Assembly (NCBI GenBank): GCA_031261425.1
Contig: JAISJR010000052.1
Location: forward strand, 1 to 64,000
Direction: 5' to 3'
Source: Planctomycetota bacterium
Lineage (GTDB): Bacteria > Planctomycetota > SZUA-567
DNA length: 64,000 nucleotides
Under the pieces are notes generated by a model that saw only the letters and a program-made list of their open reading frames with translations, was not told the DNA's origin and did not search any database. Every line of letters starts with the position of its first letter. The stretch's first letter is position 1. Shown here one piece after another: positions 3,416-58,793 of the stretch. The position numbers and the translations under genes are program-made.

Positions 3416-3590
3416 ACACAATTAAAAATTACGAATTAAAAATTAAAAAATGGTGGAGTTTGATTTATTTATCTCCGCTAAAAGCCCCCGCAGGGGCGAA
3501 ATGATGAATAACCGGCGGTGGAGCGCGTGTTTTTTACGCGCGTAACCGCCGGAAAGCGTCGCCACCGACCAAAATTCTTAATTTTTAATT
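3416..3590. repeat. AATTAAA heptamer element enclosing a GC-rich palindrome
   Basis: Left arm AATTAAAAATTACGAATT-type heptamers at 3420-3450 and right arm CTTAATTTTTAATTG at about 3577-3591. The middle contains GGAGTTTGATTT and a palindrome built on ACCGGCGGTGGAGCG/CGCGTAACCGCCGG. The latter is related to the repeats at 17930-18205. The rest of the 3105-3611 gap shows no convincing gene. Confidence 0.65.
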
Positions 3591-3611
3591 GTTCTTGCGG
3601 AGGGAGAAGCC

Positions 3612-4307
3612 ATTAACACTAACACCGGCAGTAAAAGCAAAAAGACGCGCCTGAATTTAGAAATTCGCGGCGCGAAAGAAGTGCGGTTGGTCGATGAAGA
3701 CGGCGCGATGGTCGGGATTGTCCCGTTTGAGCAGGCGCTCGCGCGCGCCCGCAAAGCCGAACTTGACCTGTGCGAAATATCGCCCACCGCCAAGCCGCCC
3801 GTGTGCCGCATTATGGACTACGGCAAGCACCTCTATCAGCAAAAAAAGAAAGAACACGAAGCCGAGCGCAAACGCCAGACCCAAGAGCAAAAACAATTGC
3901 GCCTGCGGAGTTTTCGCATTGATAAACACGACCTCGAAATCAAGGTCAAACAAACGCGGCAGTTCATCGAAAACGGCGACCAAGTGCTGTTCACCTTGCA
4001 ATTTCGCGCCCGCGAAAACGACCGCCCGGAAATGGGGCGCGACGTGTTGCTCGGCATCGCCAAAGCCGTCGCCGACGTGGCGCAAATTTCGTCGAAGCCG
4101 AACAAAGAAGGCAAGCGGATGACGATGTTGCTGACGCCGGTGCCGAATATCGCCGCCGTCGTCGCCAAACTCCGCGCCGAACGCGAACGCCTCGCCAAAG
4201 AAAAAGGAATCACGCTTGAACCGGAAATCCTGCCCGAAGACGACAGCAACGCGCCGGACGACGATGAGGACGATAATGACGCCGATTCTAACGTGAAAAC
4301 AGAGTAG
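3612..4307 (+). CDS. infC: Translation initiation factor IF-3, with an AUU start codon
   Basis: IF-3 binds the 30S subunit, keeps 50S off and proofreads the initiation codon. The reading frame extends upstream of the first GTG (3681) through NLEIRGAKEVRLVDEDG, the conserved IF-3 N-terminus, so that GTG cannot be the start. An ATT at 3612 follows a strong GGAGGGAG about 7 bases upstream, giving 231 residues. AUU initiation is the known basis of infC autoregulation in other bacteria. The N domain covers about 1-95 and the C domain 105-195. The last 25 residues are an acidic tail rich in Asp, longer than usual. It is first in the infC-rpmI-rplT operon. Confidence 0.93.
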   Translation: MNTNTGSKSKKTRLNLEIRGAKEVRLVDEDGAMVGIVPFEQALARARKAELDLCEISPTAKPPVCRIMDYGKHLYQQKKKEHEAERKRQTQEQKQLRLRSFRIDKHDLEIKVKQTRQFIENGDQVLFTLQFRARENDRPEMGRDVLLGIAKAVADVAQISSKPNKEGKRMTMLLTPVPNIAAVVAKLRAERERLAKEKGITLEPEILPEDDSNAPDDDEDDNDADSNVKTE

Positions 4308-4320
4308 TTTGATAATTTTT

Positions 4321-4440
4321 TAATTACAAATTAAAAATTACAAATTAAAAATTTTGGAGGAGTTCGGTTAGAAAATTCGCTTCGCGTAATTTTTAAGACC
4401 AATCCTCCATTCGTAATTTTTAATTTCTAATTTGTAATTG
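4321..4440. repeat. AATTAAA/AATTACA heptamer-armed element
   Basis: Between infC and rpmI. The left arm is four AATTAMA units; a second inverted pair GGAGGAGT/ATCCTCC follows; the core holds TTCGCTTCGCG; the right arm repeats the complement (AATTTTTAATTTCTAATTTG). It can fold into a long hairpin between two co-transcribed genes. Confidence 0.75.
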
Positions 4441-4465
4441 CTCTTTCTTTTAACGGGAGATAAAA

Positions 4466-4676: not shown

Positions 4677-4765
4677 ACAATTAAAAATTAACCATTTTAG
4701 CCCTTGTTAATTTGTCATCAAACTCCGCAATTGTTAAGTGTAAATTGTTAATTTTTAATTCTTAA
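4677..4765. repeat. AATTAAA/AATTAAC heptamer-armed element
   Basis: Between rpmI and rplT. Short left arm (CAATTAAAAATTAACC), core with ATCAAACTCC, right arm GTAAATTGTTAATTTTTAATTC. It is more degenerate than the copy upstream of rpmI. Confidence 0.65.
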
Positions 4766-5139: not shown

Positions 5140-5248
5140 CAGTTGGCAGTGGACAGCGGTCAGTTAGCAGTCCGCTTGCGGACTTGAAAATAAAACTCCA
5201 CAACTGTCCACTGTTCACTGCTCACTGCCCACTGCTCACTGTAAATTC
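5140..5248. repeat. CAGTGRN heptamer-armed element
   Basis: Left arm GGCAGTGGACAGCGGTCAGTTAGCAG, core CCGCTTGCGG followed by AAAATAAAACTCC, right arm ACTGTCCACTGTTCACTGCTCACTG and onward. The core is the same type as in elements that have AATTAAC or GAGAGTT arms. Confidence 0.78.
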
Positions 5249-5826: not shown

Positions 5827-6798
5827 ATGTCCGACCTTCCCAAAAACGCGCCCGCCGGCTGTCTGTGGGGAATTTTCCGTCACGCGCTTATCGCGGTCGT
5901 GGCGCTGTGCGGCTTGTTATTGTTGTTGACGCTGATTTTCGCGGTGGGCATCGGCAAATTCGGCGGCGACTCGACCGGCGATAAATTAAGCGAAAAAATT
6001 ATCGTCGCCGGCGCCGCGACCGAGCGCGTCGCGCTGATTGCGCTAAACGGCGTCATCGGCGGTTGGGGCAACGACGCCGTGGGCGACGGCGTCGCGCACG
6101 CGCTCGCGAAAAAACTTCGCGCCGCCGCCGAGGACGCGACGGTGAAAGTCGTGTTGTTGGAAGTCGATTCGCCGGGCGGCGGCTTGACGGCGAGCGACGG
6201 CTTGCATCACGAAATTTTGCGACTGAAAGAAGCGGGCAAAACGGTGGTCGCGGCGGTCGGCGATATGGCGGCGAGCGGCGGCTATTACGTGATTGCGCCC
6301 GCCGATTTTATTTTCGCGCAACCGACCGCTTTAATCGGCTCGTTCGGCGTGATTATGGAACATTTTGAATTGGGCGAATTGCTGAAAAAAATCGGCGTCA
6401 AAGTCGAGCCGATTAAAAGCGCCGACAATAAAGACCTCGGCAGTATTTTTCGCGAAATGACGCCGGCGGAAAAAGCGCGGTTGGAAAAAATCGTCGGCGC
6501 GTATCACCAGCGGTTCGTCGAAATTATCGCCGACGGACGGAAACTGCCGCGCGAAAAAGTCGCGGCGTTGGCGACCGGCGAAATTTTCACCGCCGCCGAA
6601 GCCGTCAAAAACGGACTCGCCGACCGCCTCGGTTACCACGACGACGCGCTGACCTACGCCGCTCATCTCGCCGGCAAAAATCCGCAGGTCTTCGCCTACG
6701 AGGACGCCTTCAATTGGCAACGGTTGGCGGAAGCGCTGTCCGGCAAAACGGCGCTCGGCGATTTCCTCGCCGCCGGACCGAAATTGTGGTTGAAATGA
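5827..6798 (+). CDS. sppA: Signal peptide peptidase SppA, S49 family (short form)
   Basis: 323-residue membrane-bound serine protease that degrades signal-peptide remnants and misfolded membrane proteins. One transmembrane segment at about 18-42 anchors a ClpP-like domain at 60-290. Nucleophile Ser150 in DMAASGGYY and general base Lys202 in NKDLGS have the 52-residue spacing of the Bacillus enzyme. Another conserved element is SPGGGLTASDG near 118-128. GAGGAACGCCCAA precedes the ATG. It is the single-domain type, half the size of E. coli SppA. Confidence 0.9.
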   Translation: MSDLPKNAPAGCLWGIFRHALIAVVALCGLLLLLTLIFAVGIGKFGGDSTGDKLSEKIIVAGAATERVALIALNGVIGGWGNDAVGDGVAHALAKKLRAAAEDATVKVVLLEVDSPGGGLTASDGLHHEILRLKEAGKTVVAAVGDMAASGGYYVIAPADFIFAQPTALIGSFGVIMEHFELGELLKKIGVKVEPIKSADNKDLGSIFREMTPAEKARLEKIVGAYHQRFVEIIADGRKLPREKVAALATGEIFTAAEAVKNGLADRLGYHDDALTYAAHLAGKNPQVFAYEDAFNWQRLAEALSGKTALGDFLAAGPKLWLK

Positions 6799-7081
6799 AG
6801 TGGGCTGTGAGCAGTGAGCAGTGGACAGTTTTCGGCGGCAATTTATTGCCGCCGATTGCAATGCGCGAAGCGCGGCAAATTAAATTCCCCTCTACGGAGG
6901 GGTGGCAGTCCGGCGCGGTTTGCCGGACTGACGGGGTGGTTGCCGAAACAGGGACAACGCGAAATACCACCCCGTCATCGCGACATAGAACCGTCGCGAT
7001 GCCACCCCTCCGTAGAGGGGAATTTTATAACGCCGCGCTTCGCGCTCATTCTCTCAACTCTAAACTCTCAACTCTCAAAAA
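6799..7081. repeat. Nested repeat: CAGTGRN/GAGAGTT heptamers flanking a 140-bp palindrome
   Basis: CAGTGAG-type heptamers at 6805-6831, then a hairpin around GGCGGCAATTTATTGCCGCC, then a long palindrome at about 6883-7024 whose ends are CCCCTCTACGGAGGGGTGGC and its complement. GAGAGTT-type heptamers (CTCTCAACTCTAAACTCTC) follow at about 7051-7078. The long palindrome recurs at 40499-40650. No gene is present; sppA and the flagellin gene converge here. Confidence 0.75.
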
Positions 7082-9649
7082 TTACCCCAACAGCGACAGC
7101 ACGTTTTGCGGGATTTTGTTGGCTTGCGCCAACATCGACGTGCCGGCTTGGACGAGGATTTGGTTTTTGGTGTATTCCGTGGACTCGGTCGCCATATCGG
7201 TGTCGCGGATGTAACTTTCCGTTTTCGTGATGTTTTCGACCGTTACTTCCAGCGAATTGGCGTTCGTCGCCAGCATATTTTTTTGAAACGCGCCGAGCCG
7301 CGCGCGCGTGCCGGTAACGTCGTCGATGGCTTGGCGGATGATTTTCATCGCCGCCACCGGGTCTTGCGCCAGCGCCGCGTCGCCGCCCGACAACACGTCC
7401 TGCAACGAATAGACGACGTTCAGCCGGACTTCCGTTTTGCCGAGGTTCGCCACCGCCATCGACGGAATACTGTAAATCGTCCGCTCGACTTCGTTCTCGC
7501 CTTCGCCTAATTGATACTGCATTCCGCCGACAAAATCGCGCACTTGCTCGTTCGTGTTGTGCCGCCCGTTGGTCGCCCAACTCAAATAGCCCTTCGAGTT
7601 CGGGTCGAACGGGTCTTCTCCGGGGTCGGGCGCGACCGCCTGCAACGCCCCGCCGCGGCTCGCGAGCGCGCCGACATCCTGCCCGACTTGCGCCAGCGTC
7701 GTCATTCCCAACTCGCCCGCGTAAAACCGCAATTCGCCGGAATAACTTTGCGACGAGACGCTCGCCGACAAGCCCTGCGTGTGCGCGACCGACCCGTTGA
7801 CCGCGACCAGCGCGTCGCCGCCCGTCGCTTGCAAGGTGTCGCCGGCGGCAATCGGTTGCAGTTCGTAACTGTCGCTCGCCGCGTAGCCGCCGAGCAAATG
7901 CCCTTCGAGATTTTGCGCGCGCAAATACTGCTCCGAGCCGTAAGCGTCGCTATACACGCGCAAACCGAGTTGGTTAAATTCGAGCGTGCCGGAGCCCTCG
8001 ATGCGTTGCGTCAAATCGGCGACCGCGCCCAACGATAACGTCGCGTAAATGCCGGACGGCTTGCCTTGATAATCGACCTCTTGCACCGCGACTTGATACG
8101 GATTGCCGGACGAGGCGTCGGCTGTGCCTGCGGCGACCAAATATTGCGGCAACATACTGCCGTCGGTGAAAATTTTCACCGTGGTTTCTTGCTTCGCTTC
8201 ATCGTAAGTTACGCCGAAATACAACCGCGCGTCCTCCGAAGTGTTGTCCTGCAACCGAATCCCGCTGAGGCACGACGCGCCGGAGGTCATATCCAAACCG
8301 AACGCCGTGGTGAGCGAGGTCATTTCGTCGAGTTTCATTCCGTTGGCGGCAAAACTGCCGTCCGTCGCGCCGTCGCGCAATTCAAACTGTTGCCCGAATT
8401 GCAAAACGCTTACGGCGCCAAGTTGCGGCGCGGGAGCGGTGGCGGTAATTGTGATATGCGCCGCCGCGACGCCGGAATTGTTGGACGAGGTCATCGGCGA
8501 ACCGGTTTTGCCGCGTCCGATTTCCATCGTGAAATTTTCGTCTTTGTAGGCAACGTAAGTCGCGGCGTCCGTCCAGCGCAAATACATCCGCCCGTCGCCG
8601 TCTAAATTCATTCCCGGCACCAGCGCGTTTTCATTAAAAGTCGCGCCGTCGGTGTTGATGGAAACCGCCGCCACGCCGGCGCCGCTATGGTTGTAAATCG
8701 CCGCTTGTCCGGCGAGACGGTCGCCGCTCGCCGCCGCCGCGCCGTCGGTGCTCATCGCCGTCAAATCCACCCGACTGCCGGAAACGGAACTGTCGAACGT
8801 CAGCGTCGCGCCGATGCCGGTGCTGCCTTTGGAATTGTTGATGCCCTGCGCGATGACGCCGAGATGCGTGCCGTCTAAAAACGAATACGCTTTCGCGCCG
8901 TTGTTGCCGGTCAAAATGAAACGTTGCGGCGCGGTGAGGTAGCCGTCAATCACGTCCGGCACCCAAGCGTTGGTGTTGTTGTTGCCCGCCAAGGTCTTGT
9001 CGCATTCCAGCACGGCGCGCCGCGCCTGCCGGTCGCCGAGCGCGGGCATTCCCGGATTGGTCGTATCGTAGCCGGTGAAATTTATCGCGAGCGGCGCCTG
9101 GTCGCCGCGTTTGGCAATTTGGTCCACGCGCGAATTGGTCACGTCGATGAGCGGATTGTCCATCGGGTCGTTGACGGTCGTGGACGCGCGGAAAATCAGC
9201 GACTTCGAGCCGTTGAGCAAAAATTGGTCGGAGAAGCGCGTGGTGTTGGCGATGCGGTCGATGGTCTGGATGCCGCTGTCGATTTCGGCTTGGTCGGCGG
9301 TTACTTGCTCCGGCGAGGTCGCGCCTTCGTTGGCGGCGTGAATCGCCAATTGGCGCATCTTGGTCAGGATGTTGTTGATTTCGATGAGCGCGCCTTCGGC
9401 GATGCCGATGACGTTGGACGCTTCCTGCGAATTTTGAATTGCCCGCGTGATGCCGCTCCCCTGCGAGCGCAATTGCTCGCTGATTTGCAGTCCCGACGGG
9501 TCGTCGGACGCGACGTTGATTTTGTAGCCCGACGACAGCCGCGCGAGCGACTGCGTCAACATCCGGTTGCTCCCGCCGAGATAACGACTCGTGCCGAGCG
9601 CGTTGATGTTGGTGTTGACATAAGCGCCGGGCGAAAAAGTGGTGGACAT
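7082..9649 (-). CDS. fliC: Flagellin with large central insertion, 855 residues
   Basis: Filament subunit. The N-terminal coiled-coil D0/D1 region is unmistakable at about 10-170 (LARLSSGYKINVASDDPSGL, EGALIEINNILTKMRQLAIHAANEG), as is the C-terminal one (about 770-855, ending AQANKIPQNVLSLLG). Between them lies about 600 residues of surface-exposed domain, roughly twice a typical flagellin. AAGAGGTGCCTT precedes the ATG. It is a paralogue of the next flagellin; similarity extends into the central part (LVPGMNLDGDGRMYLRW). FliW and CsrA, which control flagellin in other bacteria, are encoded at 32.9-33.7 kb. Confidence 0.93.
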   Translation of the reverse strand: MSTTFSPGAYVNTNINALGTSRYLGGSNRMLTQSLARLSSGYKINVASDDPSGLQISEQLRSQGSGITRAIQNSQEASNVIGIAEGALIEINNILTKMRQLAIHAANEGATSPEQVTADQAEIDSGIQTIDRIANTTRFSDQFLLNGSKSLIFRASTTVNDPMDNPLIDVTNSRVDQIAKRGDQAPLAINFTGYDTTNPGMPALGDRQARRAVLECDKTLAGNNNTNAWVPDVIDGYLTAPQRFILTGNNGAKAYSFLDGTHLGVIAQGINNSKGSTGIGATLTFDSSVSGSRVDLTAMSTDGAAAASGDRLAGQAAIYNHSGAGVAAVSINTDGATFNENALVPGMNLDGDGRMYLRWTDAATYVAYKDENFTMEIGRGKTGSPMTSSNNSGVAAAHITITATAPAPQLGAVSVLQFGQQFELRDGATDGSFAANGMKLDEMTSLTTAFGLDMTSGASCLSGIRLQDNTSEDARLYFGVTYDEAKQETTVKIFTDGSMLPQYLVAAGTADASSGNPYQVAVQEVDYQGKPSGIYATLSLGAVADLTQRIEGSGTLEFNQLGLRVYSDAYGSEQYLRAQNLEGHLLGGYAASDSYELQPIAAGDTLQATGGDALVAVNGSVAHTQGLSASVSSQSYSGELRFYAGELGMTTLAQVGQDVGALASRGGALQAVAPDPGEDPFDPNSKGYLSWATNGRHNTNEQVRDFVGGMQYQLGEGENEVERTIYSIPSMAVANLGKTEVRLNVVYSLQDVLSGGDAALAQDPVAAMKIIRQAIDDVTGTRARLGAFQKNMLATNANSLEVTVENITKTESYIRDTDMATESTEYTKNQILVQAGTSMLAQANKIPQNVLSLLG

Positions 9650-9663
9650 AAGGCACCTCTTAT

Positions 9664-9829
9664 CAATTAAGAATTAAAAGTTAGACCATTTCCAAATTAA
9701 AAATTACAAATTAAAAATTAAAAATTGCGGAAGAATTATCAAAATGGCGCGAAGCGAATTTGAGAATCAAACCTCACAATTTTTAATTTGTAATTTGTAA
9801 TTTTTAATTCCGCACCGCGCCTGCCGCAA
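9664..9829. repeat. AATTAAA/AATTACA heptamer-armed element
   Basis: Between the two flagellin genes. Arms of AATTAMA units on the left and their complement (TTTTTAATTTGTAATTTGTAA) on the right; core GGCGCGAAGCG with AATCAAACCTC. The core is on the opposite strand to that in several other copies. Confidence 0.75.
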
Positions 9830-9850
9830 ATTATTGGCGACCAATTTCTA

Positions 9851-12610
9851 TCAACCGCCGAGTAACGATAAAACGTTCTGGTTAATCTGGTTCGCCTGCG
9901 CCAGCATCGTCGTGCCGGCTTGGACGAGGATTTGGTTTTTCGTGAACTCGGTCGATTCCCGCGCCATATCCGCGTCGCGAATCGAACTTTCGGTTTTCTG
10001 GATATTTTCCACCGTTACGTCGAGCGAATTGATGTTCGTTTGCAACATATTGCTTTGGAACGCGCCGAGCCGCGCGCGCAATTCCGTAACGTCGGTAACC
10101 GCCTGCGTTACGATTGCCATCGCGCGCACCGGGTCGTTCGCGAGCGACGCCACGCCGCCGGACAACACGTCCTGCAACGAATAGCGCACGCCGTTCGCCG
10201 ACATCTTGCCGAGGTTGGTCATCGTCATCGACGGAATGGCGTAAATAGTCCGTTCCTGGTCGCCCGCGCCTTCGCCGAGTTGATACTGCATTCCGCCGAC
10301 AAAATGCCCGATGGTCTCCGTCGTCGTGTGCCGCGCGTTGGTTACCCACGTCAAATACGCCGGGTCGGTCGGGTCGTAAATCGAATTGTTGTCCGTCGCT
10401 TTGACCGCCTGCAACGAGCCGCCGCGGCTGTAAAGTCCGCCCACGTCTTGCCCGACTTGCGCGATGGTCGTCAAGCCGGGGGCGCCCTGGTTGAATACGA
10501 GTTTGCCCGAATAGTTCGGCGTCGTGATATTCGCCGTCAAGCCCTGCGTCTTGATGGCTTGTCCGTTGACGTAAATCGTCGCGTCGGAGCCGTATAACTG
10601 CGAGGTGTTGCCCACCGGCAACAATTCGAGTTTTTCGACGGGACTGGCGGGATTTTTGTAAGTCCCGAACATTTGCCCTTCGATGTTTTGCAGACGGAGA
10701 TACTCCTGCGAGCCGTATTCCTGCGTGTAAAGACGCAAGCCGATTTCGTTAAAGCGCGTCGAGCCGGAAAATTCCGCGCCGAGTTGCGCCGTCCGCAAGG
10801 ACTCCGGCTGATTGTTCAAGTTGAACACCAAATTGCCGTAAATGCCCGACGGTTTGCCTTGATTGTCGTCCATCGGCATCGCGAAAATCGGCACGTTCAG
10901 CAGTTCCGCCGCGCCGCCGGTAGTGTCGTTCACGTTGTAGGTGGCGATGCCGCGCGCCACTAAATCCTCGTCGTTCATATTCGCGTTGCGATACACCTCG
11001 ACGGTGAGCGTCTGCCCGTCGGTCGTCGTCGCGTCGCTGTCCTCGCCGATGATGTATTTGTAATAGAGTTTGCCGTTTTCGTCGGTGTTCACGCCGAGAT
11101 TGATGCCGCTCAAATTACTGGCGCAACCGGCGGTCATTTCCGGCGGGGTCAGGTCGCCGGTTTTATCGTCTTTGAGACCGGCGACCAAACCGAGCGCGTC
11201 CACGACCGCTTGCAATTGGTCTAATTCCAGCGCGTTTTTGCCCTGCTGATAATCTTCGTTCAATTCAATGTGTTGCGCGAATTGCAACACCGAAATATCG
11301 TCGGCGACCGGCGCCGGCAACGTGTTCGCCGCCGCGAACAAATCGGGATTGACGGCGCCGCCTTCGGTGAGCCGTTGGTCGCCGGACGCATAAATAATCA
11401 ACTGCGCTTTTTCGACGCCGGAATTATTGGTCGCGCCCATCGGTTTGCCGCTGGTGCCGCGTCCGACCTCCATCGTCATATCGGCGTCCTTGAAGGCGAT
11501 ATAGTTAATCGGGCTGACCCATTTGAGATACATCCGTCCTTCGCCGTCGAGATTGACGCCCGGCACCAACGTATTTTCTTGCGGCATATTCACGCCGCTG
11601 GTGGAGAAATCGACGCCATACACGCCGCTCTTGAACTCGTAGCCCTCCACGCCGCCCGCCACCGGTTTCGGCATAAAGTCGCCGCCCAAATTGTAAATCC
11701 CGACTTTGGCGCCGGAGGTTATGGTCAGTTCCGCGTTGAAATTCGTCCCGCCTTCGGTGGTGATGTTCACGCCGGTAACGTCGTGGTTGAAAATCAACGT
11801 CGCGCCGACGCCGATGCTGTCTTTGACGTTGTTGATGGATTGATAGATGGTGCCGAGTTCGGTGCCTTTGGCGAAAGTGAATTGCCGCGACCCTTGCGTG
11901 CCGGTAACGACGAAAATTTGACCGGCGGTGATTTTGCCGTCGTCGATTTGCGTCAGCGCGTTTTGCGACTTGTCGGCTTCGACGTAGGCGCGGCGCGCCT
12001 GCATATCCCATTGCGCCTGCGTCATCGTCGTGCCGTCGTTGACGCCGGAAAAACTCAGCGTCAGCGAGGTGCCGACGCGCTTGAACACCTGGTCGATGCG
12101 CGTGCCGTCAACGTTGATGAGCGAATGGTTCATCGACGTGTCCACGGTCGTGGTCGAGTCGAAGACGATGCCTTTCGAGCCGTTGAGCAAATACTGGTCG
12201 GAGAAGCGCGTGGTGCTGGCGATGCGCTCGATGGTTTGGATGCCGCTGTCAACTTCGGACTGGTCGGCGGCGACCTGGTCGGGCGCGGTAACGCCGTTGT
12301 TGGCGGCGTGAATGGCGAGCGAGCGCATCTTGGTCAGAATCGCGTTGACTTCGATGAGCGCGCCCTCGGCGATGCCGATGACGTTGCACGCTTCCTGCGA
12401 GTTCTGGCTGGCGCGGGTCAGCCCCGCGACTTGGGTGCGCAACTGTTCGCTGATGATTAAGCCGGAGGGGTCGTCGGCGGCGGTGTTGATGCGGTAGCCG
12501 GACGACAGTTTTTCCAACGACTTCGACAGCATTTGATTGCTTTTGCTGAGCGAAATCTGGGTGTTGAGAGCGTTGAGGTTGGTAACCACGGTCATTGCGC
12601 CGGTAGCCAT
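9851..12610 (-). CDS. fliC: Flagellin with large central insertion, 919 residues
   Basis: Second, larger filament subunit. The conserved N-terminus (LEKLSSGYRINTAADDPSGL, EGALIEVNAILTKMRSLAIHAANNG) and C-terminus (RDADMARESTEFTKNQILVQAG) flank about 650 residues of variable domain. A near-perfect ribosome-binding site (AAGGAGG, 7 bases before the ATG) suggests strong expression. No sigma-28 promoter stands out within 150 bases upstream. Order and similarity point to tandem duplication followed by divergence of the central domain. Confidence 0.93.
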   Translation of the reverse strand: MATGAMTVVTNLNALNTQISLSKSNQMLSKSLEKLSSGYRINTAADDPSGLIISEQLRTQVAGLTRASQNSQEACNVIGIAEGALIEVNAILTKMRSLAIHAANNGVTAPDQVAADQSEVDSGIQTIERIASTTRFSDQYLLNGSKGIVFDSTTTVDTSMNHSLINVDGTRIDQVFKRVGTSLTLSFSGVNDGTTMTQAQWDMQARRAYVEADKSQNALTQIDDGKITAGQIFVVTGTQGSRQFTFAKGTELGTIYQSINNVKDSIGVGATLIFNHDVTGVNITTEGGTNFNAELTITSGAKVGIYNLGGDFMPKPVAGGVEGYEFKSGVYGVDFSTSGVNMPQENTLVPGVNLDGEGRMYLKWVSPINYIAFKDADMTMEVGRGTSGKPMGATNNSGVEKAQLIIYASGDQRLTEGGAVNPDLFAAANTLPAPVADDISVLQFAQHIELNEDYQQGKNALELDQLQAVVDALGLVAGLKDDKTGDLTPPEMTAGCASNLSGINLGVNTDENGKLYYKYIIGEDSDATTTDGQTLTVEVYRNANMNDEDLVARGIATYNVNDTTGGAAELLNVPIFAMPMDDNQGKPSGIYGNLVFNLNNQPESLRTAQLGAEFSGSTRFNEIGLRLYTQEYGSQEYLRLQNIEGQMFGTYKNPASPVEKLELLPVGNTSQLYGSDATIYVNGQAIKTQGLTANITTPNYSGKLVFNQGAPGLTTIAQVGQDVGGLYSRGGSLQAVKATDNNSIYDPTDPAYLTWVTNARHTTTETIGHFVGGMQYQLGEGAGDQERTIYAIPSMTMTNLGKMSANGVRYSLQDVLSGGVASLANDPVRAMAIVTQAVTDVTELRARLGAFQSNMLQTNINSLDVTVENIQKTESSIRDADMARESTEFTKNQILVQAGTTMLAQANQINQNVLSLLGG

Positions 12611-15729: not shown

Positions 15730-16215
15730 ATAAAAAAGTGGGGGGGTGGGCGGTGAATAGTGAGCAGTGGGCGGTTGGAGTGAGAATCGAAGTTGCGATT
15801 AAGTTTTTTTTGCATTTCTTGAACCTCTATTCGCGTTTTTTCAACCTCCACCAAAAAACCGGAAATTCATTCTGAAAGGAAAGACGGCGATTCGATAAGT
15901 GAACGGTGTATCGCGGTAGAGCAGAGTTGAGAGTTGAGAGTTGAATTTGCGCGAAGCGATTTTTGATAATCTCCGACCGTCGCCGCGAAGCGGCAAAGCG
16001 TAACAGCCCAGCGCAACGCGCTGGGTAAAAAGTCGCCAATAAATTACGCGCCCTGTTAAGGGCAATGCAAAAATTTCCATTGCTCTTACAGAGCGCCGAC
16101 GTTTTTTCGGCAACGCTAACCCAGCCCGCCGGAAAATCATAAAGCCGATTTTCCTTTGGGCTGGGCTGTTACACGTTGCCGCTTCGCGGCGTCGGTCGGA
16201 ATGATTTGGTTAAAA
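15730..16215. repeat. Heptamer traces and composite palindrome family copy
   Basis: CAGTGRN heptamers at about 15755-15778, GAGAGTT heptamers at 15921-15943, then a composite palindrome at 15960-16215 related to those at 1-230 and 12850-13060. The gap between bamA and the autotransporter-like gene shows no gene. Confidence 0.7.
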
Positions 16216-23146: not shown

Positions 23147-23187
23147 TTGTCCAAGTTATATTTACGGGTAATGGTAGTTTGCAGTAA

Positions 23188-36617: not shown

Positions 36618-36682
36618 GGTTTTGCCTCCCGTTTTCTTTGAGCGGACAGAGTGGTTCGGAAACCGTTAGGAGTAAGAGATTC

Positions 36683-37646: not shown

Positions 37647-40031
<2,385 letters not shown>

Positions 40032-44414: not shown

Positions 44415-44526
44415 TTTTTTAGAGTTTAGAGTTAAGAGATTAGAGTTTAGAGAATGGAGTTTTATTTTTAAGACGCGCGAAGCGCAACCTTTGCTCAACT
44501 CTTAACTCTAAACTCTTAACTCTGAA
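44415..44526. repeat. GAGAGTT heptamer-armed element
   Basis: Between queD and the next minus-strand gene. Arms AGAGTTTAGAGTTAAGAG and CTCAACTCTTAACTCTAAAC; core GGAGTTTTATTTTTAAG and GCGCGAAGCGCAACC, i.e. the standard core in reverse orientation. Confidence 0.82.
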
Positions 44527-46145: not shown

Positions 46146-46248
<103 letters not shown>

Positions 46249-47702: not shown

Positions 47703-47819
47703 TTATCCTTTGTTTAGAGTTTAGAGTTAAGAGTTTAGAGTTGAGATAATGGAGTTTTATTTTTAAGACGCGCGAAGCGCAACCTCCGCTCAACTCTCAA
47801 CTCTCAACTCTAAACTCTC
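47703..47819. repeat. GAGAGTT heptamer-armed element
   Basis: Between yggS and the nucleotidyltransferase-Nudix gene. Arms TTTAGAGTTTAGAGTTAAGA and CTCAACTCTCAACTCTAAAC; core GGAGTTTTATTTTTAAG and GCGCGAAGCGCAACC. Confidence 0.82.
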
Positions 47820-48738: not shown

Positions 48739-48756
48739 TGCCACTCCCTCTATCAA

Positions 48757-48788
48757 TTAAGAATTAAAAATTAAAAATTAGAACCAAT
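48757..48788. repeat. AATTAAA heptamer half element
   Basis: Single arm TATCAATTAAGAATTAAAAA and onward between the divergent nucleotidyltransferase and reductase genes, with no opposite arm. It therefore also occupies their shared promoter region. Confidence 0.6.
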
Positions 48789-49641: not shown

Positions 49642-49965
49642 ATGAGCAAATCCCCGCGCAAACTTACTTCCGCCGCCGTCGCCGCTTTATTTGCGCGGGG
49701 GCAATTCGTCAAAGGGCGCTCGTTGTCGGCGCGTTATTTGGCGAACGGTTTGGCGCTCTCGCGGTGCGCGCCGATTGTCGGCAAAAAACTCGGCAACGCC
49801 GTCCGTCGCAATCGCATCAAACGCCGGCTCCGCGCCGCGTGGCGGGAAATCGCCGCCGACATTCCGGCGGGTTTCGATTTCGCCGTGCTGGCGCGGGTCG
49901 AAGCGCAAACGATGCCGTTCCCGCAATTGGTCGCCGCGATGAAGGAAGTGTTAAAGAGAGTTTAG
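49642..49965 (+). CDS. rnpA: Ribonuclease P protein component
   Basis: 107 residues. Assists the RNase P RNA in maturing tRNA 5' ends. The RNR signature is VGKKLGNAVRRNRIKRRLRAAWRE. The usual partners rpmH, yidC and dnaA are not next to it. The ATG at 49642 immediately follows the repeat (GGACAAAAAAT) with no good ribosome-binding site. The final LKRV and stop are made by a GAGAGTT heptamer. Confidence 0.92.
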   Translation: MSKSPRKLTSAAVAALFARGQFVKGRSLSARYLANGLALSRCAPIVGKKLGNAVRRNRIKRRLRAAWREIAADIPAGFDFAVLARVEAQTMPFPQLVAAMKEVLKRV

Positions 49966-50042
49966 AGTTGAGAGTTAAGCAGAGGTTGCGCTTCGCGCGT
50001 CTTAAAAATAAAACTCCACTCTCTCAACTCTAAACTCTTCTC
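49957..50042. repeat. GAGAGTT heptamer-armed element between convergent genes
   Basis: AGAGAGTTTAGAGTTGAGAG, core GGTTGCGCTTCGCGCG with AAAATAAAACTCC, right arm CTCAACTCTAAACTC. It separates rnpA and the kinase gene. Confidence 0.82.
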
Positions 50043-53086: not shown

Positions 53087-53347
53087 ATTTGTCCACGAAT
53101 TTTTGCGAATAAAAAAGAGATTTTTTTTGTCCACGAATTACACGAATTACACGAATTAAAAAGCCGGAAAACGGACAAAAAAATTGGGAAAGCACACTAA
53201 CCTTCGCTTCGCTCGGTTTCGTGAAAATTCGGGTTAAGTTCTTTTCGTGTTCAGGCGTGGCTTCTCTTTTTTGCGCATAACGCGAACTGTTAAGTTTTTT
53301 AATTCGTGAAAATTCGTATAATTCGTGCTAATTCGTGGACACGCTCT
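53087..53347. repeat. CACGAATTA-class element
   Basis: GTCCACGAATTTTTGCG, then TCCACGAATTACACGAATTA units, then AAAGCACACTAACC, TTCGCTTCGCTCGGTTTCG, and a right arm of AATTCGTGAAAATTCG units to GTGGAC. Longest copy of the class. It directly precedes the sigma-54 activator start. Confidence 0.78.
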
Positions 53348-53367
53348 TCCCTCTCGCCCGAAAAATT

Positions 53368-54858
53368 ATGGACCAAATCATCATCGTTGACGACGACGAA
53401 TTTATGCGCGGCTCGTTAGAAGAGACGCTGGCGTTCGGCAATTACCGCGTCGCCGGTTTCGCCCAAGCCGAAGACGCGCTCGCCGCGTTGAGCGACGGTT
53501 CGGCGTCGCTGTTGCTGACCGATATGCGGATGCCCGGCATGAGCGGCTTGGAATTGTTGGAGCGCGCCCTCAAAGCCGACCCGCAATTGCCGGTCGTGAT
53601 GATGACGGCGTTCGCCACCGTCGAAACCGCCGTCGAAGCGATGAAAAAAGGCGCTTACGACTACATTATGAAACCGTTCGACGCGGCGCGGATTGAAGTC
53701 GTGGTCAAAAAAGCGCTGGCGCACCGGCGACTGCTTCGCGAAAACGAATTTCTCAAAGACGAACTCAACAAACGTTGGAGCGTCAAAAATTTCATCGGCA
53801 AAAGTCCGGTGATGAAAACGGCGTTCGAGCAAATCCGCCAAGTCGCCGCGACGAACGCGACGGTGTTCATTCACGGCGAAAGCGGCACCGGCAAGGAAAT
53901 GGTCGCGCGCGCCGTGCACGCGCAAAGTCCGCGCCGCCACAAGCCGCTGATTTGCGTCAACTGCGCGGCGCTGTCGGCGGGCGTGCTCGAAAGCGAATTG
54001 TTCGGACACGAAAAAGGCGCGTTCACCGGCGCCGACAAACGGCGCATCGGACGGTTTGAACTCGCCGACGGCGGCACGCTGTTTCTCGACGAAGTTACGG
54101 AAATGAACTTGGAATTGCAGGGCAAATTGTTGCGGGTGTTGCAAGAGCGCGAATTTGAGCGCGTGGGGTCGAGCGAAACGATTAGCGTCGATGTGCGGAT
54201 TCTGGCGAGTTCCAACCGCGATATGGCGAAGGCGATTGCCGACGGCGTTTTCCGGCAGGATTTGTTTTACCGGCTGAACGTGGTCGAAGTCGAATTGCCG
54301 CCGCTCCGCGCCCGTAAAGACGACATTCGCGCGTTGGTCAATTATTTCATCGAGAAATACAACCGCGAGCAAGGCACGAAAGTTAAAACCGTCGGCGAAA
54401 ACACCTATCGCTTGCTTGAAAGTTACGACTGGCCCGGCAACGTCCGCGAATTAACCAATATCGTCGAGCGGGCAATCGTGCTGGGCAACGGCGGCGAGTT
54501 GTCGGAAACCGTCGTCGCGCAAAGCATCCGCAAGGGCAGTGGGCAGTCGGCAGTCGGCAGTGAGCAGAAAGTGAATAGTGAGCAGTGGGCAGTGAACAGT
54601 GAACAGAAAGCGCAAGCGAATGAATCGGGGAAAAAGGGCGGCGTTGGGGAAAATTCTGCTCACTGCCCACCGCCCACTGCGGACTGCCCTCCGCCCACTG
54701 CGTTCGCGCCGCAACCGTTGGAAAATATCGAGCGCGACTACATTTATCAAACGCTGAAATTTTTTGACGGACACCGGCAAAAAGCGGCGCAATCGTTGGC
54801 TATCAGCGAGCGCTCCCTCCGCGACCGGCTGAAACGTTGGCAGGACGAGGAAGAATAG
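53368..54858 (+). CDS. Sigma-54-dependent response regulator (NtrC family) with repeat insert
   Basis: About 496 residues. Receiver domain at 1-118 (acidic pocket DDD near 8-10, phospho-acceptor Asp52 in LLTDMRMPGMSG). AAA+ domain at about 140-380 with Walker A GESGTGKE, sigma-54-contact loop GAFTGAD, and Walker B TLFLDEV. Fis-type helix-turn-helix at the end (HRQKAAQSLAISERSLRDRLKRW). Between AAA+ and helix-turn-helix, about 58 residues (54533-54706) are translated CAGTGRN heptamers. No histidine kinase is adjacent. The ATG at 53368 matches the family start; a longer reading from 53335 begins inside the repeat. Confidence 0.9.
   Translation: MDQIIIVDDDEFMRGSLEETLAFGNYRVAGFAQAEDALAALSDGSASLLLTDMRMPGMSGLELLERALKADPQLPVVMMTAFATVETAVEAMKKGAYDYIMKPFDAARIEVVVKKALAHRRLLRENEFLKDELNKRWSVKNFIGKSPVMKTAFEQIRQVAATNATVFIHGESGTGKEMVARAVHAQSPRRHKPLICVNCAALSAGVLESELFGHEKGAFTGADKRRIGRFELADGGTLFLDEVTEMNLELQGKLLRVLQEREFERVGSSETISVDVRILASSNRDMAKAIADGVFRQDLFYRLNVVEVELPPLRARKDDIRALVNYFIEKYNREQGTKVKTVGENTYRLLESYDWPGNVRELTNIVERAIVLGNGGELSETVVAQSIRKGSGQSAVGSEQKVNSEQWAVNSEQKAQANESGKKGGVGENSAHCPPPTADCPPPTAFAPQPLENIERDYIYQTLKFFDGHRQKAAQSLAISERSLRDRLKRWQDEEE
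54533..54706. repeat. CAGTGRN heptamer element inside the sigma-54 activator gene
   Basis: Left arm GGGCAGTCGGCAGTCGGCAG and onward, centre with AATCGGGGAAAAAGG, right arm CTCACTGCCCACCGCCCACT and onward. It stays open in the host frame and encodes SEQWAVN-like and TADCPPP-like residues with a 7-residue period. Confidence 0.85.
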
Positions 54859-54886: not shown

Positions 54887-56062
54887 ATGTCATCAACCGA
54901 CTGGCTTATCATCGGCGGCGGCGCGGCGGGCTTGGCGGCGGCGCGAACCGCGGCGGCGCGGGGCAAAACCGTAACCTTGTTGGAAGCGTCCGCCGCGGCG
55001 GGCGAAAAAATTTTGGCGGCGGGCGGCGGACGGTGCAATATCGGCAATCTCGCGCTGACGGAACGCGGCGTCGATTACGGCAAATTTTACGGCGCGGCAA
55101 AAAATTTCGTCAAACCGGCGCTGTCGGCTCTGCCGTCAATGCGCGATTTTTTTCATCCCCTTGGCGTGGCGCTAATCGCCCACGGTTCGCGTCTTTATCC
55201 CGCCGACGAACGCGGCGCGACGATTCTTAACGCGCTGACCGGCGCGGATGCGCATCTCCCGCAAATAACCGCGCATTTTCTTTGTCCGATAGTCGCCTTG
55301 CGCCAAGACGGGGACGGTTGGCAAGCCGTCGCGGGCGACGGACGCCGATTTTTTGCCGCCCGCGCGTTGCTCGCGACCGGCGGCGTCAATGCCGCGACGC
55401 GCGAAATTTTGCAATCGCTCGGACACGCCGTTACGCCGCTTTTGCCGGCGCTCGCGCCGTTGACGGTTGCTGGGTTTGGGGATTTGGCGGGCGTGAGCGT
55501 GCCGCAAGTCGAAGTTTGGCGCGTCGCCGCCTCGCGCCGGAAATTCGGCGGCGACTTGCTTTTTACGCATCACGGTTTGTCCGGTCCGGCGATTTTGGAT
55601 TTGTCGGGCGAGGTCGCGGCGGCGGTGGCGGCGCGGGGACAAAGTGAAATCGCCGTCAATTTTGCGCCCGCTTTAACCGCGGCGGAATTTGCCGCGTGGC
55701 GCGTCGGCGGACAACCGCTGAAAAAACGCTTGCCGTTGCCGGAGCGTTTGGCGGTAAAAATTTTGCGGTCGGTCGCGCCGGCGCCGCCGCAACGCGCCGC
55801 CGAATTAACCGCCGTGCAAAGCCGGAATTTGTGGACGGCGCTGACGGCGCATCGGTTTTTGATTACGCAACTGACGCCGAGGCATCAGGCGATGGTTACG
55901 CGCGGCGGCGTGGCGTTGGACGAAGTTGAAGCGAAAACGCTCGCGAGCCGCCGGCATAAAAATTTGTATTTTGCCGGTGAAATTTTAGACGTGGACGGCG
56001 TTTCCGGCGGCTTTAATTTGCAGTGGGCAATCGCCGGCGGATGGTTGGTAGCGAGTGTTTAG
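54887..56062 (+). CDS. BaiN/RdsA-type FAD-dependent oxidoreductase (YhiN family)
   Basis: 391 residues. Dinucleotide-binding start WLIIGGGAAGLAAARTAA, LLEASAAAGEKILAAGGGRCN (the HI0933 motif), LFTHHGLSGPAILDLSG, and a C-terminal GEILDVDGVSGGFNLQWA. The family binds FAD and reduces organic substrates; the physiological substrate is unknown here. It lies 28 bases after the sigma-54 activator with no strong ribosome-binding site. Confidence 0.9.
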   Translation: MSSTDWLIIGGGAAGLAAARTAAARGKTVTLLEASAAAGEKILAAGGGRCNIGNLALTERGVDYGKFYGAAKNFVKPALSALPSMRDFFHPLGVALIAHGSRLYPADERGATILNALTGADAHLPQITAHFLCPIVALRQDGDGWQAVAGDGRRFFAARALLATGGVNAATREILQSLGHAVTPLLPALAPLTVAGFGDLAGVSVPQVEVWRVAASRRKFGGDLLFTHHGLSGPAILDLSGEVAAAVAARGQSEIAVNFAPALTAAEFAAWRVGGQPLKKRLPLPERLAVKILRSVAPAPPQRAAELTAVQSRNLWTALTAHRFLITQLTPRHQAMVTRGGVALDEVEAKTLASRRHKNLYFAGEILDVDGVSGGFNLQWAIAGGWLVASV

Positions 56063-56063
56063 A

Positions 56064-56147
56064 GTTAAGAGTTTAGAGTTTAGCAATGGTCGCGCTTCGC
56101 GCATTTTGAAAATAACTCCACTGCTCAACTCTCAACTCTAAACTCTC
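56064..56147. repeat. GAGAGTT heptamer-armed element between convergent genes
   Basis: GTTTAGAGTTAAGAGTTTAG, core GGTCGCGCTTCGCGC with AAAATAACTCC, right arm CTCAACTCTCAACTCTAAAC. Ends at the exbD stop. Confidence 0.82.
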
Positions 56148-56604
56148 ACTTGCCGTTTGTTTCTTCGTTCAGGTAGAGCGCGCTGTAAGCGAGGCGCCAG
56201 AGGTGATTTTCGCGGCAGATATTGACGACGCGCCGGACGCTTTCGTAGGTGGCGCGTTTGTCGGCGCGGATGATGACGATGCGGTTGGAATAACCGTTGG
56301 CGTCGCGCTCGCCGAGTTCGGATTGCTCTTTGAGAACTTGTTGCAATTCCGCGTCGTTCAGCGTTTGCCCCATCACGCGAATCTCGCCGTCGCGGCTGTA
56401 ATTTTGACTGTCCTCCGCCATCACGTTAATAATGAAGCGCTCGGCGTTTTGGGACTCGCCGTTTTTCGCTATCGGCAACGCGACGCGCGCGTGGCTGGCG
56501 TCGGTAACGGCGGACGCGCAAACAAAGAAAATGACCAGCAAAAAAATCACGTCAATCATCGCCGTCATCGTCATCGCCGACTCGTCGGAACGGATGCGCA
56601 ACAT
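56146..56604 (-). CDS. exbD: ExbD/TolR-family biopolymer transport protein
   Basis: 152 residues. One transmembrane segment at about 10-32 (MTMTAMIDVIFLLVIFFVCA) carries the conserved proton-path Asp. A periplasmic domain follows (IVIIRADKRATYESVRRVV). It normally works with ExbB/TolQ to power an envelope process; no partner gene is in the window. The C-terminal 25 residues (LWRLAYSALYLNEE) are not typical. Confidence 0.88.
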   Translation of the reverse strand: MLRIRSDESAMTMTAMIDVIFLLVIFFVCASAVTDASHARVALPIAKNGESQNAERFIINVMAEDSQNYSRDGEIRVMGQTLNDAELQQVLKEQSELGERDANGYSNRIVIIRADKRATYESVRRVVNICRENHLWRLAYSALYLNEETNGK

Positions 56605-56639
56605 TGTTTGTCCTTTCGTGCCGTGCAGTTGACAGTGGT

Positions 56640-56752
56640 TATAGGGTTTAGAGTTTAGAGTTGAGAGTGTGGAGTTTTATTTCTAAAAAGCGCGAAGCGC
56701 GACCACTGCTTAACTCTAAACTCTTAACTCTAAACTCTGCTCACTGCTCACT
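56640..56752. repeat. GAGAGTT heptamer-armed element
   Basis: TTTAGAGTTTAGAGTTGAGA, core GGAGTTTTATTTC and GCGCGAAGCGCGACC, right arm CTTAACTCTAAACTCTTAAC and then CTGCTCACTGCTCACT, i.e. GAGAGTT and CAGTGRN units joined. It supplies the recD stop codon. Confidence 0.82.
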
Positions 56753-58578
56753 AATCTGTCCGCCAAACCGGAGTCGCGGGCGGTCGCGGCGGCGACGGCG
56801 GCTTTGAAGACCGCCTCGTCCGCCCAAATGACGCACCGTTTTTTAGCGCGCGTCAAGCCGGTGTAAAGCCATTCGCGCGTCAACAGCGGCAACGACCGCG
56901 CCGGTAAAATCAACAACACTTCGTCAAAACCGGAGCCCTGCGCCTGATGCGTCGTCAGCGCCCACGCCGCCGTATGCGCCGGCAGTTCGGCGACGCTAAA
57001 ATGGCGAAATTTTTCCGCGGCGGGAAAATAAACGCGAACGCCGTCGCGCGCGTCGTCCCAACATAAACCGGCGTCGCCGTTAAACAATCGGCGCCGGTAA
57101 TCGTTTTCCGTAATCAGCACCGGATAGCCACGCCCGTATTTTTTCACGCCGAGAATTTTCGGCAACAGCCGGTTCACCGTTTCGCCGCCGCCGACCCCGT
57201 CGCGCGTCGCGCATAAAATACGGAAGCGGTCGAATTGCGCGAAAGCGTCCGCGAGGTCGCCGCCATCGCCCCAATAATCGCCCGCGCGCCCTAAGCGCCG
57301 CTCCAATTCGCCGACCGTTTTCGGCGCGGGCGCGCCGGCAAGCGTGTCGTCGCCGGACGCGAGAATTTGCCACGCCGCGTCGCCGTCGCCGCGGTTGACG
57401 GCGTCTTTGAGTTTGCCGATGCCGCGCGTCCCGTCGAAGCGGTGCGATTTTTCCAAACGCGCCACGCGCGGCGAATTTTGCCACGCGGCGCAAATATCGG
57501 CAAAAACCGCGCCGGTTTCCACGGCGGCGAGTTGGTCGCGGTCGCCCAACAAAATAACGCGACACGCCGGCGGCGTCGCCGCCAATAAATTTGCCATCAG
57601 CGGCAAGTCAACCATCGAACATTCATCGACGATTAAACAGTCGGCGGCAAACGGATTTTCGGCGGTATGCGCGAACGCGCGGCGCGACGGTTGATATTTA
57701 AGCAACCGATGAATCGTCGCCGTTTCAAGATTAGTCAGAAAATTCTTCACCTCGTCGCCGACGTTAAGATTTTGCCGGATTTCATCTTTGAGCGCCTCCA
57801 ACATCCGCGCCTGCGCCTTGCCGGTCGGCGCGACGAGGCGGATGTTGGCAGTGGACAGTGGGCAGTGGGCAGTGAGCAGTGGGCAGTGAGCAGTGGGCAG
57901 AGTTGGCGCTCGCTCGCTTTTCTGTCCGCTGTCCACTGTCCGCTGTCCACTGACCGCTGACCACTGTTCACTGTTCACTGCCCACTGCTCACTGACCAAC
58001 GCGGCAAGCACGACGCTGATAATCGTCGTTTTGCCGGCGCCCGGCGCACCGGTGATGACGCAAAATTGTTCGGTCAACGCGCGGCGCACGGCGACCACTT
58101 GCTCGTCGTCCAACGGCAATTTCGTGAGCGCTCGAATCGCGGCGGCGTCCCAAGTTGCCGCCGATGCCGACAACGCGGCGGATGCGTCAGATTCGGCGGG
58201 GCGATAATTGAGACGAGCGGCAAGTTGCCGTTCAAGCAACCAATAGCGTTGCAAATAGAGCCGGTCGCCGTCAAGGACGAGCGGTTTGCAGAGGTCGTTG
58301 CGCGGCGGCGCGGCATCGGCGACCGCGACGGCGAAAGCGTAATCGTCTTCGCGCAACCGGCGCGACCAATCGACGGCGAGGAGCGCGTCGCCGGTGAAAA
58401 AATTTTTCAATTTATTGAGCGGCAAACAGACGTGGTTGTCGTCGCACGTGGCGCGGGCGACGAGCGCGACTAACCGTTGAAACTCCTCGCCGACCGCCAC
58501 GCCGACCGGCGCCAAACGCGCGACGACCGCGGCGAAGTGCCGCGCAAAGGACGACGGAGTGGGACGTTGATGCGTCAT
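56716..58578 (-). CDS. recD: Exodeoxyribonuclease V alpha subunit (RecD) with repeat insert
   Basis: About 620 residues. SF1B 5'-3' helicase of RecBCD: Walker A GAPGAGKTT, VAPTGKAQARM, VDECSMVDL, LLGDRDQLAAVETG, TTHQAQGSGFDEVLL and WLYTGLTRAKKR. N-terminal RATCDDNHVCLPL fits RecD rather than RecD2. A stretch of about 50 residues (57847-57996) between the Walker A helix and the VAPTGKA strand is translated CAGTGRN heptamers. The last residues (SSEQSLELRV) are also repeat-derived. recB and recC are not in the window. The ATG at 58578 is chosen; the reading to 58647 starts in repeats. Confidence 0.88.
   Translation of the reverse strand: MTHQRPTPSSFARHFAAVVARLAPVGVAVGEEFQRLVALVARATCDDNHVCLPLNKLKNFFTGDALLAVDWSRRLREDDYAFAVAVADAAPPRNDLCKPLVLDGDRLYLQRYWLLERQLAARLNYRPAESDASAALSASAATWDAAAIRALTKLPLDDEQVVAVRRALTEQFCVITGAPGAGKTTIISVVLAALVSEQWAVNSEQWSAVSGQRTVDSGQKSERAPTLPTAHCPLLTAHCPLSTANIRLVAPTGKAQARMLEALKDEIRQNLNVGDEVKNFLTNLETATIHRLLKYQPSRRAFAHTAENPFAADCLIVDECSMVDLPLMANLLAATPPACRVILLGDRDQLAAVETGAVFADICAAWQNSPRVARLEKSHRFDGTRGIGKLKDAVNRGDGDAAWQILASGDDTLAGAPAPKTVGELERRLGRAGDYWGDGGDLADAFAQFDRFRILCATRDGVGGGETVNRLLPKILGVKKYGRGYPVLITENDYRRRLFNGDAGLCWDDARDGVRVYFPAAEKFRHFSVAELPAHTAAWALTTHQAQGSGFDEVLLILPARSLPLLTREWLYTGLTRAKKRCVIWADEAVFKAAVAAATARDSGLADRLVSSEQSLELRV
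57847..57996. repeat. CAGTGRN heptamer element inside recD
   Basis: Plus-strand left arm GGCAGTGGACAGTGGGCAGT and onward, centre GGCGCTCGCTCGC, right arm CTGTCCACTGTCCGCTGTCC and onward. It is in frame, with no stop codon in the recD direction, encoding SEQWAVN/SGQRTVD then TAHCPLL periods. Confidence 0.88.
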
Positions 58579-58617
58579 TGGAATGGTTCTATTTCTCGCC
58601 GGCGGCGGGAGGGAGCG

Positions 58618-58793
58618 AATTAACAATTTACAATTAACAATTAACAATTAACAATTAACAATTAACAATTTTGGCGTTTTGCCGGTCAAAATCGCTTCGC
58701 GAAATTTTGATAATTAACTCCTCAATTGTTAATTGTGCATTGTTAATTGTTAATTGTTAATTGTTAATTGTTAATTGTTAATTGTTAATTGCC
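58618..58793. repeat. AATTAAC heptamer-armed element, longest copy
   Basis: Left arm of about six CAATTAA units (58622-58668), core AATCGCTTCGCGAAATTTTG with AATTAACTCC, right arm of about eight AATTGTT units to 58790. It supplies the hisH stop codon. Confidence 0.87.

Follow-up and report, generated by a model that had tools for sequence, protein, structure and literature searches.

The gaps between the genes of a termite-gut-type planctomycete carry hundreds of small elements in which a run of heptamers, a centre and a run of the complementary heptamers follow one another ([7-mer]n - centre - [complementary 7-mer]n). They are described here from a window of 64,000 nucleotides (positions 1 to 64,000 of contig JAISJR010000052.1, Planctomycetota bacterium assembly GCA_031261425.1) and are best read as non-coding, hairpin-forming intergenic repeats. 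Between this species and a sister species the positions of the elements are kept; their centres and arms turn over, and the centres are sometimes inverted in place. This in-place turnover is the new observation: in the sister species the matching gap still holds a hairpin, but its contents have usually been overwritten or flipped. The hairpins are among the fastest-changing parts of the genome.

Bacterial heptamer repeats have been catalogued for decades without an accepted origin. In the present genomes hundreds of copies, a recognisable centre and two species that can be aligned gap by gap make flips, replacement, in-phase conversion and nesting visible. If the turnover is confirmed, intergenic hairpins can hold their positions and yet be renewed much more quickly than point mutation would change them. 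This would affect strain typing as well as the reading of a conserved intergenic position as evidence of function.

Elements and their turnover in orthologous gaps

The host genome of the window (G000; the window is its contig C85) comprises 2.62 Mb in 104 contigs. Genome-wide element counts cover 1.18 Mb of it, in stretches, and 1.14 Mb of the sister species (G001), the sole congener in the sets searched; the other relatives are planctomycete metagenome-assembled genomes. Both compared genomes are drafts with open reading frames (ORFs) from crude calling, and all p values are approximate and indicative, as the sequences counted are related.

The window holds 23 paired-arm heptamer elements, chiefly of the arm classes AATT, AGAGTT and CAGTG. 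There are 303 paired elements in G000 and 269 in G001, and both arms belong to the same class in 272 and 237 of them, respectively. Such repeats lie far above chance: 823 kb of G000 contain 413 period-7 tracts scoring at least 12, against 0 in block-shuffled DNA, and G001 has 363 against 1. Other periods in the G000 scan mostly give 1-50 tracts each, and period 14 finds the same tracts as period 7. At about 0.39 tract clusters per kb, a whole genome would hold roughly 1,000 of them; they account for about 3% of the DNA. Arms are most often 4-5 heptamer units long, and a typical element measures about 100-120 bp.

Only 28 of 199 apices fall inside ORFs of at least 100 amino acids (aa), though such ORFs make up 85% of the DNA. 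An earlier note, made from the letters of the window, had recognised these elements and placed them correctly to within a few bases. Its statement that they sit in most gaps was too strong; with crude ORF calling, 14 of the 32 window gaps of at least 100 nt contain a tract, which is less than half.

Beside the elements, G000 and G001 align at about 93-96% identity, with a flank figure of 95.9% in the gap comparison. Of the 254 orthologous gaps compared, both species have a tract in 131, only one species in 25 and 19, and neither in 79 (odds ratio 21.8, p 3e-25). The comparison of orthologous gaps for presence and arm type, which the earlier note had proposed, covers 175 gaps where one species or both carry a tract; 131 of these are occupied in both.

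The contents of the gaps behave differently. In 56 orthologous pairs with one scored centre in each species, the median identity of orthologous centres is 0.74, compared with 0.73 for random centres of the same class and 0.92 for the best paralog. A paralog is closer than the ortholog in 43 of these pairs. About a fifth of the pairs reach at least 0.9, and some loci at least 0.98. Centres identical between loci are rare (2 and 5 centres).

Arms change as well. The arm class differs between the species in 11 of the 56 cleanly scored pairs, and complete class swaps between intact coding flanks are seen by alignment, as at 49957-50040, which is AGAGTT-armed in the window and AATT-armed in G001. 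A class of arms can also change as a set: at 12 loci the AGAGTT arms of G000 are AAAGTT arms in G001. The proposal of one element type with exchanged or rewritten arms is largely right, and hybrids and nests also fit it. Its other half, a single fixed core, gives way to class-linked subtypes and to AAAGTT arms that in G001 also surround a second centre.

Inversion in place can be seen among 74 same-family pairs: 18 have kept their centre, and in 10 the centre matches better after flipping. (A looser tally of 18 opposite and 16 same was set aside, as it included replaced centres.) An example is the element at 58618-58791, whose centre has an identity of 0.91 flipped and 0.74 unflipped. Its outer left units, AATTAAC AATTTAC AATTAAC AATTAAC, with the rare AATTTAC among them, do not differ between the species. 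In AATT elements with a replaced centre, the outermost arm unit is the same in 27 of 50 cases against 28% expected (p 1e-4), and this agreement decays inward. Few empty sites in orthologous gaps are clean, and most keep arm remnants; the comparison of target-site duplications rested on these few.

Arms, centres and apex

The earlier note had called the arm classes unrelated. They are instead mutational neighbours. The classes AATTAAC, AGTTKAG (=AGAGTT), AGTTGAA (=AAAGTT), AGTTGGT (=TAGTT) and AGTGGRC (=CAGTG) all fit the register A[AG]T[TG]NNN, and 31 of 40 class junctions lie at exactly 7 nt, in phase (p 5e-19). Examples are AATTTAGAATTTAGAATTTAGAGTTTAG in contig C7 of G001 and AAAAGGGAAAAGTTGAAAGTTC in contig C14 of G000. 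The register is found in 81 of 246 Planctomycetota sampled, often but not always with a clear excess over the reversed control.

Other planctomycete and Omnitrophota contigs contain heptamer pairs that are likewise inverted but surround other centres. Inverted arms of GCTGTAA, AGTTGCC, AATTACG, GGAATGC and AATTGAG occur in L108, L119, L151, L186, L189, L191 and L192 (planctomycetes and one Omnitrophota contig).

Elements may also be nested. Nine elements, all TAGTT-armed, are enclosed on both sides by outer arms of the AATT class, and AATTACG/TAGTT concentric composites are repeated as whole units and have multiplied in G001. TAGTT-class elements number 19 in G001 and 3 in G000; CAGTG-class elements number 13 in G000 and 1 in G001.

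Sharing of units between the arms of an element exceeds chance in AATT elements and in AGAGTT/AAAGTT elements of G001, not in AGAGTT elements of G000, and mirrored unit order is only slightly above chance. The idea that the arms are exact copies of each other was rejected on these grounds. The outer-boundary profile shows no constant motif beyond the arms. AAGAGC..GCTCTT, spotted by eye as a possible general terminal inverted repeat, was likewise rejected, with GAGC at about 16% of ends on each side.

The centre has two parts, one a GGAGTTTKATT.TCAA half and the other an apical CGC-GAA-GCG hairpin, and is flanked by 4-5 heptamers per side. AATT and AGAGTT elements served to define its head, GGAGTTTKATTNTYAA; in these, at least 13 of 16 positions match in 200 of 278 and 88 of 153 cases. 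It was afterwards found in 20 of 22 TAGTT and 4 of 14 CAGTG elements; shuffled centres contain it in 0.6%.

A sequence-only profile (R1) was built from 25 AATT centres with the arms left out. In the window it finds AGAGTT-armed elements at 56668-56700 (E 3.6e-4), 49986-50019, 44455-44487 and 56093-56118, and a CAGTG-armed element at 5178-5202; this last and the three weaker AGAGTT matches have E values of 6e-3 to 9e-3. It also detects a hybrid at 15931-15971. The element at 40030-40138 is not matched, and the weakest window match, at 62664 (E 0.8), is the only one outside the element family. That a profile of AATT centres also picks up elements with AGAGTT and CAGTG arms shows a relationship between the centres of different arm classes that exceeds chance.

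The profile has at least 150 sites in each of the two species; 27 other genomes of the class have no such site. A pattern of the exact centre type has 84 matches in G000, 52 in G001 and 0 in the reversed control of either, with four isolated weak matches in 39 other relatives.

The centres are nevertheless not constant. AATT and AGAGTT centres share an identity of 0.56 (0.51 when shuffled), compared with 0.66-0.79 within a class. They form class-linked subtypes with a common GGAGTTTKATTNTYAA half and, usually, a common CGC-GAA-GCG apex. The constant core of the earlier note is thus not confirmed: the classes have in common a half, usually an apex and the cross-class similarity found with R1 (E 4e-4 to 9e-3), but each has its own subtype. 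For instance, the element at 5140-5241 holds CCGCTTGCGG in place of CGCTTCGCG. In G001, AAAGTT arms are also found on a second, different centre (CGATTAACCGGYGCGG), and the counterpart of 40030-40138 (G001 C10:20231-20339) has AAAGTT arms and a different centre. AAAGG-armed elements mostly miss the centre.

A second recurring centre, CGATTAACCGGYGCGGTTTTC, lies under AAAGTT arms at G001 C10:19855, C10:27451, C14:8452 and L080 about 18691 (C8 about 58691).

Five of six elements are predicted to fold as DNA into one long hairpin with z scores of -6 to -11; the sixth, 5140-5241, has -2. RNA folding also predicts a hairpin (z -4.7 to -9.3). The apex has the form CGC-NNN-GCG, with a GNA triloop in 362 of 386 CGCNNNGCG apices. 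Single substitutions of the GAA triloop affect the middle base in 27 of 35 cases (GGA 23, GTA 3, GCA 1; p 1e-7), so GNA is kept. The apices thus carry the GC-GNA-GC motif. GNA loops closed by G-C pairs, CGCGAAGCG included, form extraordinarily stable DNA mini-hairpins (PMC4686876). Given such an apex, a single-stranded DNA hairpin is a plausible intermediate.

Mechanism, alternatives and precedents

The favoured model, given an even chance here, is that these are hairpin repeats whose arms serve as short inverted homology. Centres are exchanged or flipped, and arms drift through unit turnover and nesting. The arms, about 30 bp long, would offer inverted homology common to hundreds of copies. 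A replication fork or repair patch could stall at the hairpin, whose folding would start from the very stable GNA mini-hairpin at the apex. A template switch to the opposite arm would then flip the centre, and a switch to another copy would replace it. Unit slippage and homogenisation could rewrite the arms (AGAGTT to AAAGTT, AATTTTC to AACTTTC), while class switches and hybrids may arise when elements nest at an apex or recombine within the half-centre that they share. As to the enzyme and pathway, template switching at stalled forks would be the simplest candidate.

The short inverted homology of the arms would explain flips, replacement at a fixed address and the retention of outer units. 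Conservation of outer units that decays inward is expected if the arm is the point of exchange. Each step proposed for class swaps has examples: in-phase conversion, nesting and half-centre recombination. Slippage alone, which the earlier note had listed, does not fit an arm length that peaks at 4-5 units.

Several points weigh against the template-switching model. The arm gradient is clear in AATT elements only and weak in AGAGTT/AAAGTT (0.27 vs 0.20). Hairpin copying is not the sole process acting on arms, because the two arms of an element do not mirror each other exactly. Complete class swaps, whose outer ends share no homology, require a further step. The spread of TAGTT composites as whole units in G001 also fits transposition. 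Finally, the evidence comes from two draft genomes, of which G001 is probably amplified single-cell DNA: it bears the label MS499, used for single-cell genomes amplified by multiple displacement amplification (MDA; PMC12887300), and MDA can yield inversion chimeras.

The elements are probably tolerated intergenic repeats rather than control elements of neighbouring genes. That gaps stay occupied may be due to weak selection in favour of some hairpin, or simply to loss that is slower than overwriting. A wider form of the template-switching model is more tentative: the genome may hold a pool of interchangeable hairpin cassettes, with arms as universal recombination handles. Through these, centres would continually be copied among hundreds of intergenic sites that stay fixed, and would be flipped, with no dedicated transposase involved, and arm classes would shift species-wide. 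If so, one general replication process would have given rise to the heptamer-hairpin arrays of Planctomycetota, cyanobacteria and others.

Another possible model, somewhat doubtful as a general account, is transposition of non-autonomous elements resembling REPINs or miniature inverted-repeat transposable elements (MITEs), with a transposase acting in trans. Old elements would serve as landing sites, so that gaps stay occupied and contents change. For the lineage-specific expansions of TAGTT and CAGTG elements this is a serious rival. It also draws on the repeated AATTACG/TAGTT composites, on insertions at the apex of older elements and on a peak of arm length that resembles a defined unit. 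Against it, the constant terminal inverted repeats of a MITE are missing, as arms vary in class and no constant motif lies beyond them, and empty sites usually hold arm remnants and so resemble losses. Viral contigs gave no match to two exact centre patterns. The unrecognised mobile element of the earlier note, in its classical sense, is therefore not shown.

The sole Y1 transposase found in the genome (G000 C96:43842-44177; L086, 160 aa open frame; the search did not extend to other transposase families) lies in a RAYT/REPIN-like arrangement. Because both of its flanks carry CCCAGC..GGGCTGGGCTGTTAYGC-GCCGCTTCGCGGC palindromes (CCCAGC/GGGCTGGGC family), it more likely serves that family than the heptamer elements, and a RAYT was rejected as their mover. 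The same palindrome family occurs in the window at 161, 12851, 15984, 16180 and 62498. A whole-genome search for reverse transcriptases gave one RVT_1 match, barely above the cut-off.

In a third, improbable model the host selects the elements as hairpins of RNA, for instance as terminators, mRNA stabilisers or RNase sites, and tolerates any change of sequence that leaves the hairpin standing. Intergenic siting, predicted stable folds, the kept GNA apex and the conservation of gap occupancy without sequence would all agree with this. However, element density is equal in co-directional (0.41), divergent (0.38) and convergent (0.40) gaps, and orientation bias is weak (59:81, p 0.08), which argues against terminators or strand-specific signals. 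A terminator role was rejected for this reason, and the transcript-end hairpins suggested by the earlier note are not supported. Moreover, tracts lie around secY (window 20483 and 23185) and within an ORF (54534), an Rfam scan of the window gives 0 matches above the gathering threshold, and centre flips and class swaps would need to be neutral.

An artefact, in which repeats were mis-joined by the assembler or inverted by MDA, is very improbable: the MS499 label and a slight enrichment of elements at G000 contig starts (13 of 34 vs 17% of random windows) would suit it, but exact sharing of centres is too rare for graph tangles to explain replacement at most loci, each class swap with intact flanks needs two precise joins, and some loci are retained at 0.98 identity or more.

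Among known systems, the short tandemly repeated repetitive (STRR) heptamers of cyanobacteria are alike in being degenerate, of several kinds per genome and arranged in intergenic tandem tracts. In a 150 kb sample of Trichormus plasmid NC_007410 they also fit the A[AG]T[TG]NNN register (AATTCGC, AGTGAAC, AGTTATC). They differ in that sample in being mostly single tracts, with one possible inverted pair about 155 nt apart and no shared centre seen. STRRs are unpaired tracts of heterocyst-forming cyanobacteria; here the host is a planctomycete and most tracts form inverted pairs. In a search limited to open-licence papers, no described family with the centre of these elements was found. Elhai et al. 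are said to have described, in 2008, small dispersed repeats (SDR) of Nostoc, 21-27 nt long, which often lie within heptamer repeats and reportedly were proposed to move through RNA. By description, SDRs share a short structured insert within heptamers.

The closest precedent for class replacement in heptamer stems is P6b of the Nostoc trnL intron. Its Class I and II heptanucleotide repeats form complementary arms of one stem at a fixed place, and replacement of the entire class has recurred there, in a manner described as unidirectional (PMC4476775). One replaceable class per stem is also the rule here (272 of 303 elements; 11 of 56 orthologous pairs differ). P6b is a single group I intron locus, with no shared dispersed centre reported there (PMC4476775), whereas the present elements are dispersed in gaps and the window gave no Rfam match to such an intron.

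The TAACTGA repeats of Beggiatoaceae are intergenic heptamers too and, read on the other strand as TCAGTTA, show the AGTTNNN register. They are direct repeats of one sequence, mostly just upstream of start codons, with inversion in 1 of 170 sets (PMC4679880). REPINs and REPs with RAYTs resemble the elements as small intergenic hairpins with hundreds of copies and turnover within genomes, and differ in being short palindromes with a GTAG or CGTC tag rather than long heptamer arms (PMC3116915, PMC3733652). No such tag can be made out from the alignment of centres or from the profile of outer boundaries, neither of which is a dedicated tag scan, and no heptamer copies flank the Y1 gene as REPINs flank a RAYT gene.

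Elements and neighbouring features of the window

4322-4439, + strand: AATT-armed, centre GGAGGAGTTCGG..CGCTTCGCG..CCAATCCTCC; R1 4359-4405, E 1e-10; DNA fold z -6.3
5140-5241, - strand: CAGTG-armed, head GTGGAGTTTTATTTTCAA on - strand, apex CCGCAAGCGG not CGCGAAGCG; R1 on - strand, E 0.007
9694-9809, - strand: AATT-armed, head on - strand; R1 E 5e-13
15923-15971, - strand: half element, hybrid of AGAGTT arm and AATT-type centre; R1 E 6.5e-5
18236-18326, + strand: AGAGTT/AAAGTT-armed, apex CGCTTCGCG
23185-23302, + strand: AATT-armed, rare unit AATGCAC mirrored in both arms; R1 E 3e-9; fold z -7.5
29727-29828, - strand: AATT-armed, apex degenerate; R1 E 4e-10
30074-30189, + strand: AATT-armed, apex CGCTCCGCG (GGA triloop on other strand); R1 E 6e-15; fold z -9.6
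33678-33808, + strand: CAGTG-armed, without conserved centre
35643-35752, + strand: AATT arms, centre outside the family
40030-40138, - strand: AGAGTT-armed, centre GTGGAGTTATTTTTAATAACGCGCGAAGCGCAACC (head on - strand); DNA fold z -10.8
43967-44050, + strand: AGAGTT-armed, apex GCGCGTAGCGC (GTA triloop); ortholog on G001 C59
44418-44523, + strand: AGAGTT-armed, canonical centre of its class; R1 E 0.008
46144-46244, - strand: AGAGTT-armed, head GCGGAGTTATCTTAA on - strand
47712-47820, + strand: AGAGTT-armed; fold z -8
49957-50040, - strand: AGAGTT-armed, orthologous gap G001 C39:7187-7307 AATT-armed; R1 E 0.006
54534-54701, + strand: CAGTG-armed, within ORF 53335-54858; in G001 length kept (157 vs 158), repeats degenerated
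56057-56148, - strand: AGAGTT-armed, near-unchanged in G001 C39:13617-13738; R1 partial, E 0.009
56642-56752, + strand: AGAGTT-armed, CAGTG-class units beyond right arm; R1 E 3.6e-4
57849-57998, + strand: CAGTG-armed; G001 counterpart has TAGTTGG units and only 73 bp
58618-58791, + strand: AATT-armed, centre inverted in G001; R1 E 2e-10
3420-3449, 4732-4765, 7051-7078, 20483-20514 and 48755-48780: single heptamer tracts, no scored family centre

Other repeats accompany these elements. Armed elements at 36660-36940 and 53100-53350 have CACGAATTA-type arms of about 9-10 nt and a CGAGCGAAGCGAAGGTTAG centre (or its reverse) that includes GCGAAGC; octamer arms of CACAGAGG are nested within the first. 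A dispersed repeat, TTCCCCTCTACGGAGGGGTGGCA, adjoins heptamer arms at 6760-7050 and 40489-40660.

Among the genes, two adjacent and unusually long flagellins (855 and 919 aa) lie at 7082-12610. A predicted EcoRI-type adenine methylase with a T5orf172 domain at its N-terminus is encoded at 59510-60796.

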